Source: Planctomycetaceae bacterium (GTDB lineage Bacteria > Planctomycetota > MHYJ01 > SBBU01). From it: 8,951 nt of DNA. Below the pieces are notes generated by a model that was not told the origin of the DNA, searched no databases, and saw only the letters and a list, made by a program, of their open reading frames with translations. The position numbers and the translations under genes are program-made. The stretch covers positions 1-8,951 of the forward strand of contig SBBU01000065.1 in the NCBI GenBank assembly GCA_005239585.1. The letters are read 5' to 3'. Positions 895 through 6,957 of the stretch are shown in pieces. How positions within the stretch are numbered: the stretch's first letter is position 1; every line of letters begins with the position of its first letter.

Positions 895-2349
895 ATGAAA
901 TTGATTCTACTCTCATTGATAGGCTTGATGGCTGTGAATAGTTCTACGCCGGAAAAGGTCTATATTGTCCCGATTTACGGCGCTATTGACCCCAGCAACC
1001 GTGCATTTCTGCGTCGAGTTATTGACAAAATAAAGAAGGATAAACCTACTCTTGTTGTTTTTGAGATCAGCACGCCCGGCGGCGATGTGGGATCAATGGA
1101 AGCAATGAGCCAAATGATTCTGGATCTGAGGCACGACATTAAAACATGCGCTTTTATAACGTCCAGCAGGGGAAAGGATGAGTATACAGCAAGTACTGCG
1201 TGGTCTGCAGGCTCTCTGATTGCGATGTCGTGTCAGAGAATATTCATGGAACAAGTCTCGGTAATAGGTGCTGCTCAACCCATGTATATGACGCAGGAAG
1301 GTATGAGACCAGCAGAGCGCAAGATCATAGGTGCCCTAAGTGTGCAGTTTGGAGCCATAGCTGAAAGTAATGGCTATCCAAAGAATCTGGCAGTGGCTAT
1401 GGTTGATCCTGATTATGAAGTTTTCAAGGTTACTGTAGAAGGAGAGGAGAAGATGCGATTTCTTACAAGGGATGAGATAGAGGAGTTACGACAGAAACAT
1501 AAAAACATAAAGGAAAGCCTCGTAACTACTAAAGGAACTCCACTTTCACTCGATGCAAAGAAGGCAGCTGAATATGGCTTGGCCACTATAGTTAAAAATA
1601 GAAGTGATCTCTATAAACATTACTCTGTTGTTGATCCAGTTGAAGTAGAGGAGTCATACACGTGGAGCGAAGATCTTGTGCGTTACGTTACATCTCCGGT
1701 TGTTACCTCAATTTTGCTGTTGATTGGCTTTCTTGCAATATACATGGAATTTCGCTCACCGGGAATCGGATATCCTACTGTGATTGCTGTTGTTTGTCTT
1801 GGTTTGGTACTTTTTGGGCATCATCTTGCAGGTCTTGCCCAAGTTCCACAAATTATCATGATAATTTGTGGTCTTGTCTTGGTTGCATTTGAATTTTTTG
1901 TACTGCCCGGCACTATGATTTTCCTCACGGTAGGTCTGGGGCTTGTGTTGGTTGGATTTATCATGTCAATTCAGGGATTTGCAATCCCAGACGTCAGGAG
2001 TCCAATTCAGGTAGACACTTTCCTTGCCTCTACGTTACGTGTCCTTGTCCCATTTCTCGTATCCACATTCCTTTTTATCATCATCATTAAAATAATGCCG
2101 GGTGTTCCTGTTTTGAATAGGATGGTTCTTCAGGGAGAACTGGCAGGCAGTCCTGCAACAAATCATCAATTCCCACCAGATATTGTATCAAAGGAGGGAG
2201 TGGCCCTTTCAATGCTACGTCCTGCGGGAAATATTGAGGTAGATAAACAAGTCTATGATGCTGTTACTGAAGGGGAATTTATAGACAAGGGTGAGCGGAT
2301 AATTGTAAAGGCAGTAGAGGGGAATAGGATCATTGTTAAAAAGGCCTAA
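895..2349 (+). CDS. nfeD: NfeD long form: membrane-bound ClpP/SppA-like serine protease with C-terminal NfeD domain
   Basis: This is a 484-residue integral membrane protein. Residues 1-16 form a hydrophobic signal-like segment (MKLILLSLIGLMAV). Residues about 20-240 are a ClpP/SppA-like protease domain: VVFEISTPGGDVG (54-66) is the substrate-binding strand/turn, S104 in TAWSAGSLIAM is the likely nucleophile, and IGAAQPM (124-130) follows. K143 in the ERKIIGAL segment is the likely general base; the 39-residue Ser-Lys spacing is close to that of the characterised archaeal homologue 1510-N (S97/K138). Residues about 266-402 hold about five membrane segments. Residues about 430-484 form the NfeD OB-like domain, ending ERIIVKAVEGNRIIVKK. 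Long NfeD proteins co-occur with SPFH/flotillin proteins and are thought to process or organise membrane-microdomain proteins. The stop overlaps the next start as TAATG, indicating translational coupling. Catalytic residue assignment is by motif only. Confidence 0.93.
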   Translation: MKLILLSLIGLMAVNSSTPEKVYIVPIYGAIDPSNRAFLRRVIDKIKKDKPTLVVFEISTPGGDVGSMEAMSQMILDLRHDIKTCAFITSSRGKDEYTASTAWSAGSLIAMSCQRIFMEQVSVIGAAQPMYMTQEGMRPAERKIIGALSVQFGAIAESNGYPKNLAVAMVDPDYEVFKVTVEGEEKMRFLTRDEIEELRQKHKNIKESLVTTKGTPLSLDAKKAAEYGLATIVKNRSDLYKHYSVVDPVEVEESYTWSEDLVRYVTSPVVTSILLLIGFLAIYMEFRSPGIGYPTVIAVVCLGLVLFGHHLAGLAQVPQIIMIICGLVLVAFEFFVLPGTMIFLTVGLGLVLVGFIMSIQGFAIPDVRSPIQVDTFLASTLRVLVPFLVSTFLFIIIIKIMPGVPVLNRMVLQGELAGSPATNHQFPPDIVSKEGVALSMLRPAGNIEVDKQVYDAVTEGEFIDKGERIIVKAVEGNRIIVKKA

Positions 2350-2786
2350 TGCTTCTATTAAGCATATTTCTCTATCTCGTTGGAATTGTACTCGTTGTAG
2401 CTGAAACTATTCTTCCGGGCTTTGTAATGGGAATAGGCGGTGTAGCTTCTCTAATTCTTGCAATTTATCTTGCATTCACTGAAAACCCGATGATAGCAGT
2501 TTGTGAGACCATGATTGCAGTTGTATTTGTTCCAGTAGTTATCATATGGGGACTGCGAAGGATGCAGTTAAAGACCGCATTCAACAACAAGGCTGGAGGC
2601 TTGCAGGATCTCTCTCTAGTTGGTAAAACTGCTGAGGTTATTAATGACCTAAAACCGTATGGTACAGTACTTGTTGATGGCAAAAAACTCTCTGCGACCA
2701 GCTTTAGTGAGTTTATAACCAAGGGGGCCAGCGTAGTGATAGTAAAGGTTGAAGGATCAAACATATTTGTTAGAAAAGCTGATTAG
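2349..2786 (+). CDS. Short NfeD-family membrane protein
   Basis: This is a 145-residue protein whose ATG shares one base with the upstream TAA. Three membrane segments are predicted near residues 2-19, 24-43 and 48-67. A soluble OB-like NfeD domain follows at about 88-145: LVGKTAEVINDLKPYGTV, then GKKLSATSFSEFITKGASV, then VEGSNIFVRK. This is the usual NfeD layout of G-K-x-G/A at the first strand and a V-E-G-N/S-x-I/V-x-V end. It lacks the protease domain of its neighbour. Short NfeD proteins have no demonstrated enzyme activity; they are thought to interact with flotillin-like proteins. The floA gene begins 21 nt downstream behind its own strong ribosome-binding site. Identification is firm; the precise role is inferred from family and context. 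Confidence 0.91.
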   Translation: MLLLSIFLYLVGIVLVVAETILPGFVMGIGGVASLILAIYLAFTENPMIAVCETMIAVVFVPVVIIWGLRRMQLKTAFNNKAGGLQDLSLVGKTAEVINDLKPYGTVLVDGKKLSATSFSEFITKGASVVIVKVEGSNIFVRKAD

Positions 2787-2795
2787 AAACTAGTT

Positions 2796-2803
2796 AAGGA
2801 GGG
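2796..2803 (+). promoter_or_regulatory. Strong Shine-Dalgarno site for floA
   Basis: AAGGAGGG lies 4 nt before ATG 2808, a near-perfect anti-16S complement. It supports this start for FloA and suggests it is translated more strongly than the coupled NfeD genes upstream. Confidence 0.8.
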
Positions 2804-2807
2804 AAAG

Positions 2808-3878
2808 ATGTTAAATTTGGCACTTTCGGTACAAAGTAAACCTAGTAGCAGTAATCCTGAAATAGGCCAGATCTTGATGATAGGTGGAGTCATTGTTGCT
2901 GGTCTGTTTGTCATAGTACTAGTCTTCATACTTTTCAAATTTGGTGGGCTGTGGATCCAGTCAACATTGTCAGGTGCGCCTGTAGGGCCATTTGCACTTG
3001 TCGGAATGGCGCTGCGAAAAGTCAAACCAAGCATTATCGTTGATGCAAGAATCATGGCAGTCAAAGCTGGCGTTCCTATGAGGACGGATGATCTTGAGGC
3101 ATTATATCTTGCAAGAGGCGATGTTGTTGGTGTGACAAGATCTTTAATTGCATCCAATAAGGCAGGATTGGGCCTCACATTTCAGCAGGCAACCGCCATT
3201 AATCTTGCTGGAAGAGATGTGCTAGATGCTGTTAAAACAAGCGTAACACCAAAAGTGATTGATTGTCCTGATCCCAAAAAGGGCCGTGACACACTTGATG
3301 CCGTTGCTATGGATGGAATTCAGCTCAAGGTCAAGGCCCGAGTGACTGTCAGAATGAACTTGGCGCGTCTTATCGGCGGCGCCACAGAGGAAACAGTTAT
3401 AGCACGAGTTGGTGAGGGCATTGTTTCAAGCATTGGTTCTGCTGAGAGCTACAAGGCCGTTCTAGCAAATCCGGATGTGATTTCGAAACAGGTGCTGGCA
3501 AAAGGTCTGGATGCGCAGACTGCATTTGAAATCGTTTCTATTGATATCGCAGACGTTGATGTCGGTGAAAACGTAGGCGCGAGACTCCAGGCAGATCAGG
3601 CAGAAGCCAACATGCGCATGTTCCGGGCGGAGGCAGAGAAGAGGAGGGCGCTCGCTGTGGCAAAAGAGCAGGAAATGAAAGCCCTTGATCAGGAGAACAG
3701 GGCCAAGGTTACGCTATCAGAGGCTGAGATACCACTAGCCATGGCCTCTGCTATAAGAGAAGGTAAATTCGGTGTGGCCGATTATTTCCTTTTGAGGAAT
3801 ATTCAAGCTGATACCGATATGCGCCGCTCAATAGCTGATCCCAAGAGTACTCATGGTCATCAAGAGGATAAGAAATAA
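2808..3878 (+). CDS. floA: Flotillin-like protein FloA (SPFH family)
   Basis: This is a 356-residue protein matching FloA (YqfA) almost end to end. Residues about 20-44 form the N-terminal membrane hairpin ([20 protein letters not shown]), followed by [26 protein letters not shown]. The SPFH core contains [20 protein letters not shown] (132-151), [39 protein letters not shown] and [19 protein letters not shown]. Residues about 250-310 are the Glu/Ala-rich coiled coil ([20 protein letters not shown]). The tail has [20 protein letters not shown], the typical FloA ending. Compared with Bacillus FloA from memory, there is a short insertion near residues 153-163 ([11 protein letters not shown]). 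FloA oligomers scaffold functional membrane microdomains, and linkage to NfeD genes is a conserved arrangement. The start is fixed by the strong SD; the stop overlaps the next ATG. Confidence 0.97.
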
Positions 3879-4354
3879 TGAATGAAATAATCGCACTTCT
3901 CTTCATAGTGATCATGATTGGCGGGGAGATCTATAATGCGTTAGTTCGTAAAAAGGTCATCAAGGAGCGTAAAGAGACAACTACAGAGACCACAGAACCT
4001 AAACAAGAGTCCTCAGAGGGAGAAGAATACAAGCGCTATCTAGAGGAATTGAAGAGGAGGTACAGACAGGAAGAACCACAGGTGGTTTTAGTTGAAGAAC
4101 CACCTCAGGAAGAGCAGGAACAGGAAGAAGAACAAAAACTTGTTGCAGTAGAAGCAGAGAAACCTGTAGCGCTTACTCCAGAGGTTACTGTTCAGGTGGT
4201 AGAGGTAAAATCAGTTTCATTTGAAGATCGAGTCTTTAAATTGGGAGAATTTGACCCTATCAGAAAGGCCTATGTTTACAAGGAAGTCTTTGGCAAGGCT
4301 CGAGGCATGGATATACTTCGCGGTAATTACTTTCCATGGGAAATTCGCGGATAA
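3878..4354 (+). CDS. Small membrane-anchored Glu-rich protein of the floA operon
   Basis: This is a 158-residue protein whose ATG overlaps the floA TAA by one base (TAATG). Residues 1-20 are a single hydrophobic segment (NEIIALLFIVIMIGGEIYNA), followed by a basic stretch (RKKVIKERK) expected to stay in the cytoplasm. Residues about 30-90 are low-complexity, rich in Glu, Gln and Pro (EEPPQEEQEQEEEQK) and probably disordered or coiled. Residues about 114-158 look folded: FEDRVFKLGEFDPIRKAYVY, then KEVFGKARG. I recall similar C-terminal E-hydrophobic-hydrophobic-G motifs in small Planctomycetes proteins, but cannot test this here. Tight coupling to floA suggests a microdomain-associated membrane tether. 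No biochemical function can be assigned. Translation is well supported by the overlap and clean frame. Confidence 0.82.
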   Translation: MNEIIALLFIVIMIGGEIYNALVRKKVIKERKETTTETTEPKQESSEGEEYKRYLEELKRRYRQEEPQVVLVEEPPQEEQEQEEEQKLVAVEAEKPVALTPEVTVQVVEVKSVSFEDRVFKLGEFDPIRKAYVYKEVFGKARGMDILRGNYFPWEIRG

Positions 4355-4448: not shown

Positions 4449-4844
4449 ATGTTGATCATATTATTGTGGATTGGCATTTTAGGGGGAATACTCTCTTCAA
4501 CAGCAGCTCTGTACGGAAGATATTATACCCTGCCCAGTTTTCTTACAGGACCTAATATCTGCAAGCTAGAGGCAGGCGGATGCCAGGTGCTTTTTCGGAG
4601 CAGGAACGCAGCCATTTTGGGCGTTCCCAATTCATTTCTTGGTATTCTGTTTTATGCACTGCTCATAATTGGATTTTCTTCTAGTTGGCCGATTTGGTTC
4701 TTGCTATTGGGGGCTTGTGCGGCATTGGTAATGAGCATATGGCTTGCAAGTAGCTTAATCGCAAATAAGCGCGAATGTATGATCTGCTGGTTCGGCCATT
4801 TTTCGAATGCAATTATATGGATTGTTCTAGCTGCTCAGTTATAG
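4449..4844 (+). CDS. Vitamin K epoxide reductase (VKOR)-family disulfide-forming membrane protein
   Basis: This is a 131-residue protein with the four-helix VKOR core and no fused thioredoxin domain. Predicted membrane segments are near residues 2-20, 57-75, 80-102 and 113-130. The hallmark residues are all present: loop cysteines C38 and C45 (ICKLEAGGC), a nearby Ser (S51), the GVPNSFLGILFY segment beginning TM2, and the quinone-reducing CxxC at C110-C113 (CMIC) entering TM4. Bacterial VKOR proteins re-oxidise an exported thioredoxin-fold oxidase and pass electrons to quinone, replacing DsbB. No DsbA is seen in the window. The convergent gene on the other strand, however, encodes an exported thioredoxin-like Cys-Sec protein, a possible partner. 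The ATG has only a weak upstream AGG-type SD. Identification is strong; substrate and partner are inferred. Confidence 0.94.
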   Translation: MLIILLWIGILGGILSSTAALYGRYYTLPSFLTGPNICKLEAGGCQVLFRSRNAAILGVPNSFLGILFYALLIIGFSSSWPIWFLLLGACAALVMSIWLASSLIANKRECMICWFGHFSNAIIWIVLAAQL

Positions 4845-4861: not shown

Positions 4862-4892
4862 TTGCTACCCTGACGACAAGTCAGGGTAGCAA
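4862..4892. terminator. Bidirectional hairpin terminator between convergent genes
   Basis: TTGCTACCCTGAC (4862-4874) and GTCAGGGTAGCAA (4880-4892) form a perfect 13-bp stem with a 5-nt loop (GACAA). It fills the 60-nt gap between the VKOR stop and the stop of the convergent thioredoxin-like gene, the classic place for a shared terminator. Neither side has a long clean U-run; the minus side (TATTTAAAAG) is slightly better. Confidence 0.82.
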
Positions 4893-4904: not shown

Positions 4905-6098
4905 CTAGTTGATTCCGCCAAATTTAAAGGTGGAAGGTATCAACCCAAGGTAAGGATCATCCAAGTCGCATTTGAGCGCCTCTTTGTAGATTTCTTTGTA
5001 AATGTCTTTAGGCTTTGGTAAAAGTTTTTTAAGAAGCATCGAATAGATCTTTGGCTTTTTCACTGTTTTGTTCAATTCAGTATCTTCCTTTATTAGTTTT
5101 TCTTCCAATGTTTCTTTACTTGTTATTGTTGATGACTTGAGGTCTTCGAATAATTTCTTCACAGCCTCCTTGATTGGTGTTTCAATCCATTTCTTGCTTT
5201 TCGTCAATTCAAGGCTAACTATTCTTTTTAGATGTTCAACTGCCTGCTTTCCTTCTAGTAGCCATTCATAGTGTTCTTTGACAATTCGCTCAAGATACGA
5301 GTTAGAACCGTATGACCTGTCGAACAATATTTTTGCAGCCATGGCATCTTCCATAAATGTTTCTGGGGTGTTTATGCCGGGCAGCACAGATATCACATGG
5401 CCGTCCGGCGTACAAAAGTATGTGGCGATATCTCCATTGGCAGTTCGTGTTACTGGTTTGCCGTCACCGAAATCGATTGTGACCTTTGGGACCTTTCTCA
5501 GGCTTTCCCACACTGGAACGAAATTCTCATTGATAAGCTTTATTATCTTGTCGTTCGAGAACAGTACTGCTCTCGCTATGCGGGCATTTGTTCAACAAAA
5601 CTCTTCATCTAGGTCGCCTAGCAGATGAAACAACATGACCATTTTGCCCTCTTTTTTTGCCTTTGCAGTCGCCTTTTCGAAATCACGTTCCCATTTGATC
5701 TCTTTTAGCGCCTTGGTGTAGCTCTTGTTACCATTACCAGAGGGTGAATTGTTGGCAATTGTTTTTTTTATCGGTGCTTCAATTTCTTTCTTGGCCGTGG
5801 CTACAACTGTTCCACTCTTCTCCTGAAAAGTCTTGTCGATTTTGTCTAGATCGGATAAAAGTGAATTGATAGTAATCAGCTTCTTGATTGGGGCTTCAAT
5901 GATGCTTTTACCATACGCAGTTATTACTTTTCCGTCTTTCTTGAATGGGTATTCAACTGCAGTCATGGCACCAGAAACTAGAACTTTTTCAGCCTTTTTA
6001 TTGGATACTTGATTGGGCACTTGTTGAATTGTTGCTAGTGATGTAAATAGAGCTATAGCGATTAGCAGGCCTACTTTTATGCCTTTTTTAGGTCTCAT
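4905..6098 (-). CDS. Exported thioredoxin-like selenoprotein with a Cys-Sec pair (in-frame UGA read as Sec)
   Basis: Two apparent ORFs (6098-5592 and 5513-4905) are one continuous frame interrupted only by TGA at 5592-5594. Reading TGA as selenocysteine gives 397 residues ending at TAG 4905-4907. Residues 1-22 are a signal peptide (KK then LLIAIALFTSLAT). Residues about 56-118 hold a duplicated segment with IEAPIKK at 67-73 and 106-112. The thioredoxin-like domain starts near 130: WERDFEKA, then GKMVMLFHLLGDLDEEFC-U-TNARIARAVLF, with C168 and U169 as the active pair. It continues through LINENFVPVWES, KVTIDFGDGKPVTRT and YFCTPDGHVISVLPG. Residues about 250-397 are a Lys/Glu-rich helical tail with a third IETPIK (305-310). 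Homologues I recall have adjacent cysteines at the same place (FCCANAR-like), so Sec would replace the second Cys. A SECIS-like hairpin follows the UGA. GGAGG lies 6 nt before the ATG. The alternative is a nonsense mutation of a Cys codon, or a sequence error. Confidence 0.8.
5556..5575 (-). promoter_or_regulatory. Candidate bacterial SECIS element
   Basis: On the minus strand CGAGAGCA pairs with UGUUCUCG (8 bp, one G-U wobble) around a GUAC apical loop. The stem begins 16 nt after the UGA and the loop begins 24 nt after it. Known bacterial SECIS elements lie directly 3' of the UGA inside the coding region, have their apical loop about 16-37 nt from it and carry a G at the start of the loop; all these conditions hold here. 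The fit is by eye; no folding energy was computed. Confidence 0.65.
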
Positions 6099-6102
6099 AG
6101 AA

Positions 6103-6110
6103 CACCTCCA
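6103..6110 (-). promoter_or_regulatory. Ribosome-binding site of the selenoprotein gene
   Basis: On the minus strand TGGAGGTG lies just upstream of ATG 6098-6096, with 6 nt between GGAGG and the ATG. It fixes this start, directly before a signal peptide. No comparable site precedes the GTG at 5513, which argues against independent translation of the downstream half. Confidence 0.8.
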
Positions 6111-6288: not shown

Positions 6289-6957
6289 ATGGGGGACAAA
6301 AACGGTGCGGTCCTGTCCTTGCAAAATGTACGTAAAAGCTTTGGCAACGTCCCAATTCTTTCAATAAAAAACTTTGAGGTCAGGAGGGGAGATCAGCTGG
6401 CTGTAGCAGGTCCAAGCGGTGCTGGCAAGACAACATTCCTAAACCTTATCTCTGGGATCCTAAATTGTGATCAGGGTAGCATACTTGTTGACGGTCTTGA
6501 TATTACTAAATTATCAGGGCGAGCGCGTGATGTATATAGAGGAGGCAAGATTGGAATTGTATTCCAGACTTTTAATCTATTACAGGGATTTTCTGTACTT
6601 GATAATCTGCTGGTAGCGCTAATGTTTGGTGATCTACCTCGCAAGGACCACGAGGAACGTGCCAATGATTTACTATCACGAGTTGGATTAGCCGATTACA
6701 AACATCGAAAACCGGGCGAGCTTTCAGTGGGTCAGCAGCAAAGGGTTGCTATTGCCCGTGCACTTGTGAATAACCCGCCGCTGATCCTTGCGGATGAGCC
6801 TGCTGCACAACTCGACGCAGTAAACGCGGAAAATGTCATCCATTTGCTTCAGGAGACATGCCGGGAGGGAAATCATACATTGATTGTCGTCGCTCATGAC
6901 CAATTGGTTCTAAATCAGTTCAAGACTGTAGTCGACATCAGGGAGTTTGCTGGATGA
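6289..6957 (+). CDS. ABC transporter ATPase, LolD/MacB-like
   Basis: This is a 222-residue ATP-binding subunit of normal length for the LolD/MacB/FtsE group. Visible motifs are Walker A GPSGAGKT (41-48), Q-loop Q93 in VFQTFNLLQGFSVLDN, signature LSVGQQQR (145-152), Walker B LILADE (165-170), D-loop AAQLD where TGNLD is usual (171-175 region), and switch His H203 in VVAHDQ. The signature has Val for the usual second-position Gly (LSGGQ becomes LSVGQ), a tolerated variation. The subunit would power the permease encoded next, whose ATG overlaps this gene's TGA as ATGA. These ATPases usually drive mechanotransmission by FtsX-type permeases rather than classical substrate import. AAAGGTAGG just upstream of the ATG serves as an SD. 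The ordinary TGA stop shows UGA normally terminates translation in this genome. Confidence 0.95.
   Translation: MGDKNGAVLSLQNVRKSFGNVPILSIKNFEVRRGDQLAVAGPSGAGKTTFLNLISGILNCDQGSILVDGLDITKLSGRARDVYRGGKIGIVFQTFNLLQGFSVLDNLLVALMFGDLPRKDHEERANDLLSRVGLADYKHRKPGELSVGQQQRVAIARALVNNPPLILADEPAAQLDAVNAENVIHLLQETCREGNHTLIVVAHDQLVLNQFKTVVDIREFAG

Follow-up and report, generated by a model that had tools for sequence, protein, structure and literature searches.

The locus and its interrupted reading frame

The window, meaning the whole stretch of 8,951 nucleotides that was analysed, carries on its minus strand a long reading frame interrupted by one TGA, with a convergent gene beyond its 3′ end. The features considered here are the following.

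4449-4844, plus strand: gene for a VKOR-family protein (disulfide formation), convergent neighbour
4862-4892, in the gap separating the VKOR gene from the convergent selenoprotein gene: perfect inverted repeat of 13 bp, loop of 5
4905-6098, minus strand: predicted selenoprotein gene, 397 codons, Sec at codon 169, stop codon TAG
5307-5714, minus strand: thioredoxin-7-like domain, residues 129-264 (alignment A4, Pfam Thioredoxin_7)
5412-5414, minus strand: Cys229 (Sec+60), possible Sec partner
5557-5574, minus strand: SECIS-like hairpin, 6-bp stem GAGAGC/GUUCUC, loop AGUACU with G-U at loop positions 2-3
5592-5594, minus strand: in-frame UGA, read as selenocysteine (residue 169) from the TGA/Cys alternation in relatives
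5595-5597, minus strand: Cys168, immediately before Sec
6024-6098, minus strand: probable signal peptide, a basic start and then a hydrophobic stretch, judged by eye
6105-6109, minus strand: GGAGG ribosome-binding site, 6 nt ahead of the ATG, called from the sequence

A preliminary description of this DNA had proposed a single open frame of 397 codons whose sole TGA follows Cys168, and translation confirmed it. Residues 161-180 of the joined protein read GDLDEEFC-U-TNARIARAVLF. The ORF listing splits the gene into an upstream ORF of 168 amino acids and a downstream ORF of 202. The first possible start of the latter is a GTG at residue 196, 27 codons past the TGA and inside the domain, in agreement with the earlier view that the downstream half has no start signal of its own. 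The further claim that both flanks of the UGA belong to one domain also held, as each side matches one family in the alignments of relatives. By eye, the N-termini of the relatives resemble the putative signal peptide of the window protein. What appears to be a gene split by a stop is in all likelihood a single gene, encoding an exported, Sec-containing redox protein. UGA is otherwise an ordinary stop in the source organism, because the ATPase ORF at 6289-6957 terminates in TGA.

The inverted repeat at 4862-4892 has no strong T run and is a possible terminator, perhaps shared by the two convergent genes; our scan for promoter and terminator patterns does not list it. ARAGORN and an Rfam search returned nothing in the window. 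Genes for NfeD1b, NfeD and FloA lie in a row at 895-4354, an ordinary membrane-protein cluster, and FloA matches (46-64% identical) were present in 11 of the 26 genomes searched, 7 of which gave two hits. Neighbours were compared as ORFs of at least 80 amino acids across 20 Sec loci and 24 of the 61 Cys loci described below, many of them on short contigs. No VKOR relative was seen near the gene in the other compared loci, and no other neighbour protein cluster was shared by more than 7 loci, those sharing clusters including the closely related L005-L007 and L010. We therefore rejected a functional link with VKOR or any other neighbour, since none is widely shared among the compared loci.

Relatives and the codon at residue 169

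The joined protein has at least 31 database relatives (the 7,991 candidates with the most shared words were scored). The gene models of 28 of these protein records begin after the UGA column, as expected if a gene caller stops at a Sec UGA; the remaining three span the site and align Ser-Cys with Cys168-Sec169. An exported redox family has thus been recorded as headless hypothetical proteins. A first genome scan with the window protein query (P0001) gave 25 candidates and none was confirmed, a plasmid search for the family found none, and a search of viral contigs returned a weak match on an IMG/VR contig (L081, 32% over 69 residues), which was excluded from the codon counts at the Sec column.

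Scanning genome contigs with a profile from alignment A1 gave 134 relatives, and we examined the best 80. At the Sec column these 80 loci carry TGA in 19 (L001-L016, L018, L023 and L024), TGC or TGT in 61, and no other codon. Immediately ahead of this codon, 15 of the TGA loci encode Cys and 4 encode Thr; all 61 Cys loci encode Ser there. The TGA loci span Planctomycetota, Melainabacteria/Obscuribacterales, Armatimonadota and Eremiobacterota/Vulcanimicrobiota, and the Cys loci come mainly from Cyanobacteria, Acidobacteriota and other Planctomycetota. The preliminary description had predicted homologues with Cys or a further UGA at residue 169, and all 80 of these best 80 of 134 loci have one or the other. 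Its suggestion of homologues with two adjacent cysteines was mistaken: every one of the 61 Cys loci, and every one of the 34 aligned Cys rows, has Ser-Cys at this pair.

For a second sample, we ran a profile of the Sec domain (alignment A4) over 199 evenly drawn Planctomycetota genomes, of which four (G001, G008, G011 and G012) were already in the first set, scoring at most 20 first-look candidates per genome. This returned at least 50 hits in 37 genomes. Exactly one TGA lies in 41 of the 50 hits, 9 are free of stops, and TAA or TAG occurs in none. We inspected 39 of the 50 sites (the other 11 being four already in the set and seven weak ones); 19 of them were strong, with TGA at 11 and TGC at 8. 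Four loci, L087-L090, have a TGA form with the motif EEFC-U-ANGR, and L088 sits on a single contig of 9.5 Mb.

In a tree of 65 rows, in which the Cys rows are 26 of the 61 first loci plus 8 new ones, L087-L090 and all 34 Cys rows form one clade (100/100); the Sec and Cys forms therefore meet within one clade. This midpoint-rooted tree needs two changes of Sec/Cys label, one also being possible, and its bootstrap had not yet converged. Downstream of the UGA, dN/dS was 0.07-0.34 in the four of five close Sec pairs that gave a value, with dS saturated (>1) in three of these four. When a profile of the Cys form was run at E ≤1e-20 over 30 Sec genomes, many of them drafts, all 31 hits carried one TGA, and no Cys form was seen beside the Sec form in the same genome. 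The two forms, not seen together in these 30 genomes, amount to a natural experiment on what selenium contributes. One genome (G009, the source of L009) holds two separate TGA-bearing copies of the family, on contigs C45 and C46. Other alignments used smaller sets of the 61 Cys loci: 25 in alignment A5, and 22 in alignment A3 and in the flank-motif scan reported below. Locus L004, whose frame overruns the usual end of the family, was left out of A3 and shortened in the flank-motif scan and the Arg-codon test.

The hairpin after the UGA and the selenocysteine genes

The loop of the window hairpin starts 23 nt after the UGA. The bacterial SECIS model given in the available part of PMC13188914 has a stem of 4-16 bp, a loop of 3-9 nt with G in its first two positions, a spacing of 16-37 nt and an MFE of -7.5 or lower. 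With its 6-bp stem, AGUACU loop, 23-nt spacing and MFE of -10.7, the window hairpin agrees with this model. RNAfold lengthens it to 8 bp (5556-5575, loop GUAC). Compared with synonymous shuffles, its folding energy is unexceptional (z -0.85, p 0.21). Across loci, the mean z was -1.17 for 20 Sec loci versus -0.46 for 26 Cys loci (Mann-Whitney p 0.034). Folding of the 51 nt that start at the UGA gave, for several loci, a minimum-energy structure other than the shared hairpin.

Alignment A2, of the window with the first 19 TGA loci, has no gap over these 51 nt. In it, columns 21-26 and 33-38 are the two arms of a hairpin, GAGAAC-CGUGYU-GUUCUC or a variant, with 96.7% of the 120 cells paired. With 11 further TGA loci (alignment A6), 97.8% of 186 cells are paired and 15 cells carry double changes. 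Changes on both sides occur in three pairs, including GAGAAC/GUUCUC versus GCGUAC/GUACGC. The latter stem surrounds the same loop in L087-L090, with one G-U in L087; the stem of L014 is another one, displaced by one base. Not one of 500 shuffles attained the observed paired percentage, the count of 15 double-change cells or the covariation score. Two other measures were unexceptional, namely the number of pairs with double changes (matched in 116 of 500) and the number of pair types (110 of 500), and these are the two least inflated by relatedness, which our covariation counts ignore.

Codon choice in the hairpin is also skewed. Where Arg is encoded in the 5′ arm (19 of the first 20 Sec loci), its codon is always AGA or AGG, versus 0 of 19, 2 of 16 and 0 of 17 at other conserved Arg columns. 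Background use of AGR is 2-48% per locus, and the nominal log10 probability is -18 with relatedness ignored. Exceptions to the AGA pattern are L014, with Lys, and L087-L090, with CGU. A covariance model of the hairpin (R1) recovered the UGA sites in 11 of 11 further Sec loci (worst E 7.7e-5). It found no match below E 0.5 in 34 Cys loci (26 plus 8 new); the nearest, in L097, had E 0.52 and lay at the Cys codon.

We next list the selenocysteine genes in the relatives' genomes. Of the 19 genomes of the first TGA loci, 15 have selB over the cut-off, 14 have selA and 16 have a tRNA-Sec scoring 60 bits or higher. At least one of the three was present in 18 of the 19; in the exception, the draft Sec genome G007, none of the three was found. 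The corresponding counts for 10 Cys genomes were 4, 5 and 3. The tRNA-Sec search scored 100 candidates per genome; we set its 60-bit threshold ourselves, since 5 of 14 control genomes gave matches above the family's own cut-off.

Among the 199 Planctomycetota genomes, selB was over the cut-off in 134, selA in 135 and either one in 144 (counted by hand). All 29 genomes with TGA hits had one or the other gene (selB in 27), compared with 115 among the remaining 170 (Fisher p 3.5e-5); without the four genomes shared with the first set, the figure was 25 of 25 (p 1.3e-4). Seven of the eight genomes with Cys hits only also have selA or selB, so in this sample the machinery tracks the whole family and not its UGA form; the fractions are 36 of 37 family-bearing genomes versus 108 of 162 others.

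Taken together, the Cys/UGA-only column in 80 of 80 loci, the SECIS-like hairpin and the Sec genes in 18 of 19 UGA genomes support the Sec interpretation first put forward in the preliminary description. We are highly confident that residue 169 is read as Sec and that the protein belongs to a thioredoxin-7-like family missing from the lists we checked.

Sec-site residues, rival readings and known families

At an E of 0.1 or lower, 16 of 20 Sec-domain members match Pfam Thioredoxin_7 (best 4.9e-5) and 11 of 20 match DUF255. The window domain itself scores under the Pfam gathering score of 27 bits for both, with 19.7 for Thioredoxin_7 and 19.8 for DUF255/Thioredox_DsbH. A PDB search with P0001 returned one row at chance level; in the PDB profile search, the top row was an unrelated chain (E 0.36) and human AGR2 came below it (E about 1), in a weak match that aligns Sec with the Cys of CPHS. 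Because of the Pfam matches, the spacing shared with VPGUxxT proteins (see below) and this weak AGR2 alignment, Sec most likely occupies the position of the N-terminal nucleophilic Cys of thioredoxins.

Among 31 Sec rows, the residue at -1 is Cys in 27 and Thr in 4, that at +3 is Ala in 27 and Gly in 4, and that at +60 is Cys in 19. The 34 Cys rows all have Ser at -1, Ser at +3 and Leu at +60. Every Sec row has a nearby Cys (at -1 only in 12, at +60 only in 4, at both in 15), and no Cys row has either. This pattern suggests that the Cys residues at -1 and +60 partner Sec; the Cys rows being one clade, it would reflect one or few events. With Ala at +3 (Gly or Ser in relatives), the resolving Cys of classical CxxC/UxxC oxidoreductases is missing, and it is absent in all 31 Sec rows. 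The preliminary description had placed the UGA where a thioredoxin-like domain carries its redox residues, as part of a Cys-Sec pair. Its placement stands, as the UGA aligns with the nucleophilic Cys; the pair proved not essential, given Thr at -1 in 4 of 31 Sec rows.

The comparisons strongly support insertion of Sec at residue 169 by SelB, which the hairpin immediately downstream of the UGA would recruit. For the predicted enzyme, we consider the following redox mechanism fairly likely. The protein, presumably of thioredoxin-like fold, would be exported, judging its N-terminus by eye. Outside the cytoplasm, the Sec selenolate would most probably attack a disulfide or a peroxide, and resolution of the intermediate might fall to Cys168, to Cys229 or to an external thiol. 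The protein is likely to be an exported single-selenol oxidoreductase. Cyanobacterial and acidobacterial relatives, and some planctomycetal ones, carry Cys in place of Sec and have Ser at -1.

The repeated flanks form a side observation. An 11-residue motif, most commonly K..(I/V)E.P(L/V)K..(L/A), lies at window residues 64-74 (5877-5909) and 302-312 (5163-5195). We counted 58 copies in 53 proteins versus a mean of 0.84 and a maximum of 4 in 200 shuffles; L085 has 7 copies.

Three other readings of the locus were weighed. The UGA could be a true stop, in a pseudogene, through a sequencing error or between two genes. The ORF listing does split the gene, the models of 28 of the 31 database relatives cover the downstream part only, and the read-through is predicted from comparison. 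However, TGA stands at the site in 19 of the best 80 of 134 loci, in at least four phyla, and at 11 further sites, and TAA or TAG never does so in the 50 Planctomycetota hits. The low dN/dS past the UGA, the conserved hairpin and the lack of a start before mid-domain also speak against a stop. We rejected this reading on the recurrent TGA-only codon, the hairpin and the low downstream dN/dS, and regard it as very improbable. An equally slight chance attaches to UGA coding for some residue other than Sec, such as Trp or Gly, through reassignment or read-through. The stop-free relatives have Cys at the site in 61 of 61 cases, UGA terminates another gene of the window, selA or selB accompanies the TGA form in 29 of 29 genomes, and the hairpin fits the bacterial SECIS model; G007, with no detected selA, selB or strong tRNA-Sec, is the genome that would suit reassignment. 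We set this reading aside on the Cys-only alternation, the normal use of UGA as a stop and the 29 of 29 genomes.

The remaining reading accepts Sec and takes the protein to be something other than chiefly a disulfide or peroxide enzyme, for instance a binder of metal or selenium or a structural redox sensor in which the flanks and the DDPYLGL tail dominate. It draws on the lack of CxxC, on the most conserved blocks (VTIDFGDG and DDPYLGL) following Sec, on the repeated K..IE.P.K motifs in the flanks and on the lack of widely shared neighbours. Yet interchange of Sec and Cys at the thioredoxin nucleophile position is typical of redox catalysis in selenoproteins, and we judge this reading to be unlikely.

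Beyond the redox enzyme family favoured here, we inspected 20 weak Planctomycetota hits, and 19 of them (L101-L119) hold a TGA within the hit. It aligns with the Sec column in 12 and falls where the column has a gap in 7. Their motifs form three further groups (U-AAG, U-SA[GA] and U-NNA), the same hairpin with the same spacing was seen by inspection in 13 of the 19, and R1 scores 10 of the 19 below E 0.05. Eight of them were compared with NCBIfam and gave no match. These groups look like sister selenoprotein families, and they suggest that the planctomycetal selenoproteome exceeds the catalogue in the available part of PMC13188914.

Reading all of this jointly, we lean towards a superfamily of exported thioredoxin-like selenoproteins, so far uncatalogued and centred on Planctomycetota, of which this gene is one branch; it would have at least five motif groups (UTNAR, UANGR, UAAG, USA[GA] and UNNA) and one ancestral SECIS hairpin. 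Sec would be ancestral in UTNAR and UANGR. The widespread cyanobacterial and acidobacterial Cys form would have arisen by loss of Sec and a Cys-to-Ser switch beside it. A CxxS enzyme with a lone thiol would thereby have replaced one whose selenol has a nearby Cys, as all 31 Sec rows do at -1 or +60.

The preliminary description did not recognise an exported Cys-Sec (CU-TNAR) family among the known ones, and our comparisons point the same way. The window protein with 9 relatives, 20 domain members (best NF041383, E 2.9e-5) and 10 further members and sisters were compared with NCBIfam, and no family there exceeded its cut-off. The UTNAR-type family is absent from the 119-family table of PMC13188914, where no entry fits, and from the table of PMC9312934, whose GOS_A has no accession and is not comparable, both in the parts of these sources available to us. 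By uncatalogued we mean absent from the sources checked; others may still have seen the family.

The nearest known systems are the VPGUxxT (seleno)proteins (NF041382/NF041383; OS_HP5). They likewise have a thioredoxin-7-like domain after an N-terminal hydrophobic stretch and Sec at the nucleophile position, and the stretch that separates Sec from the following conserved block looks equally long by eye in six VPGUxxT loci. However, the window protein scores 17.1 bits and its domain 19.7 versus the NF041383 cut-off of 275, and in the six loci compared the similarity extends over no more than 26-28 residues ahead of the Sec loop. The window family also lacks VPG, has about 6 extra residues before Sec and a different C-terminal region, and the window has Ala at +3, which is Cys in six VPG sequences. 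Membership was rejected on the short match in 6 loci, the score below the cut-off and the missing motif. Among VPGUxxT type 2 proteins themselves, 8 of 18 hits over the cut-off have two TGAs. In two of them (L121 and L122) the second TGA aligns by eye with the Cys of the GCFW-like motif of their relatives, which we take to be MsrA-like; this suggests a double-Sec thioredoxin-MsrA fusion.

The Trx7/PDZ domain (seleno)protein (NF041199) shares a Thioredoxin_7-type domain and Sec with the window protein but differs in its CxxU motif and PDZ domain, as described in the available part of PMC13188914; P0016 scores 11.3 bits versus a cut-off of 300, and one of 20 domain members gives E 0.083. Pfam Thioredoxin_7 (PF13899) and DUF255/Thioredox_DsbH (PF03190) are the best domain matches, from which the window domain differs in lacking CxxC. 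Finally, the Cys relatives read CANS and may be likened to AGR2, a human thioredoxin-like protein that is also CxxS; AGR2 is eukaryotic and has no Sec, and with a match of E about 1 the likeness is an analogy only.
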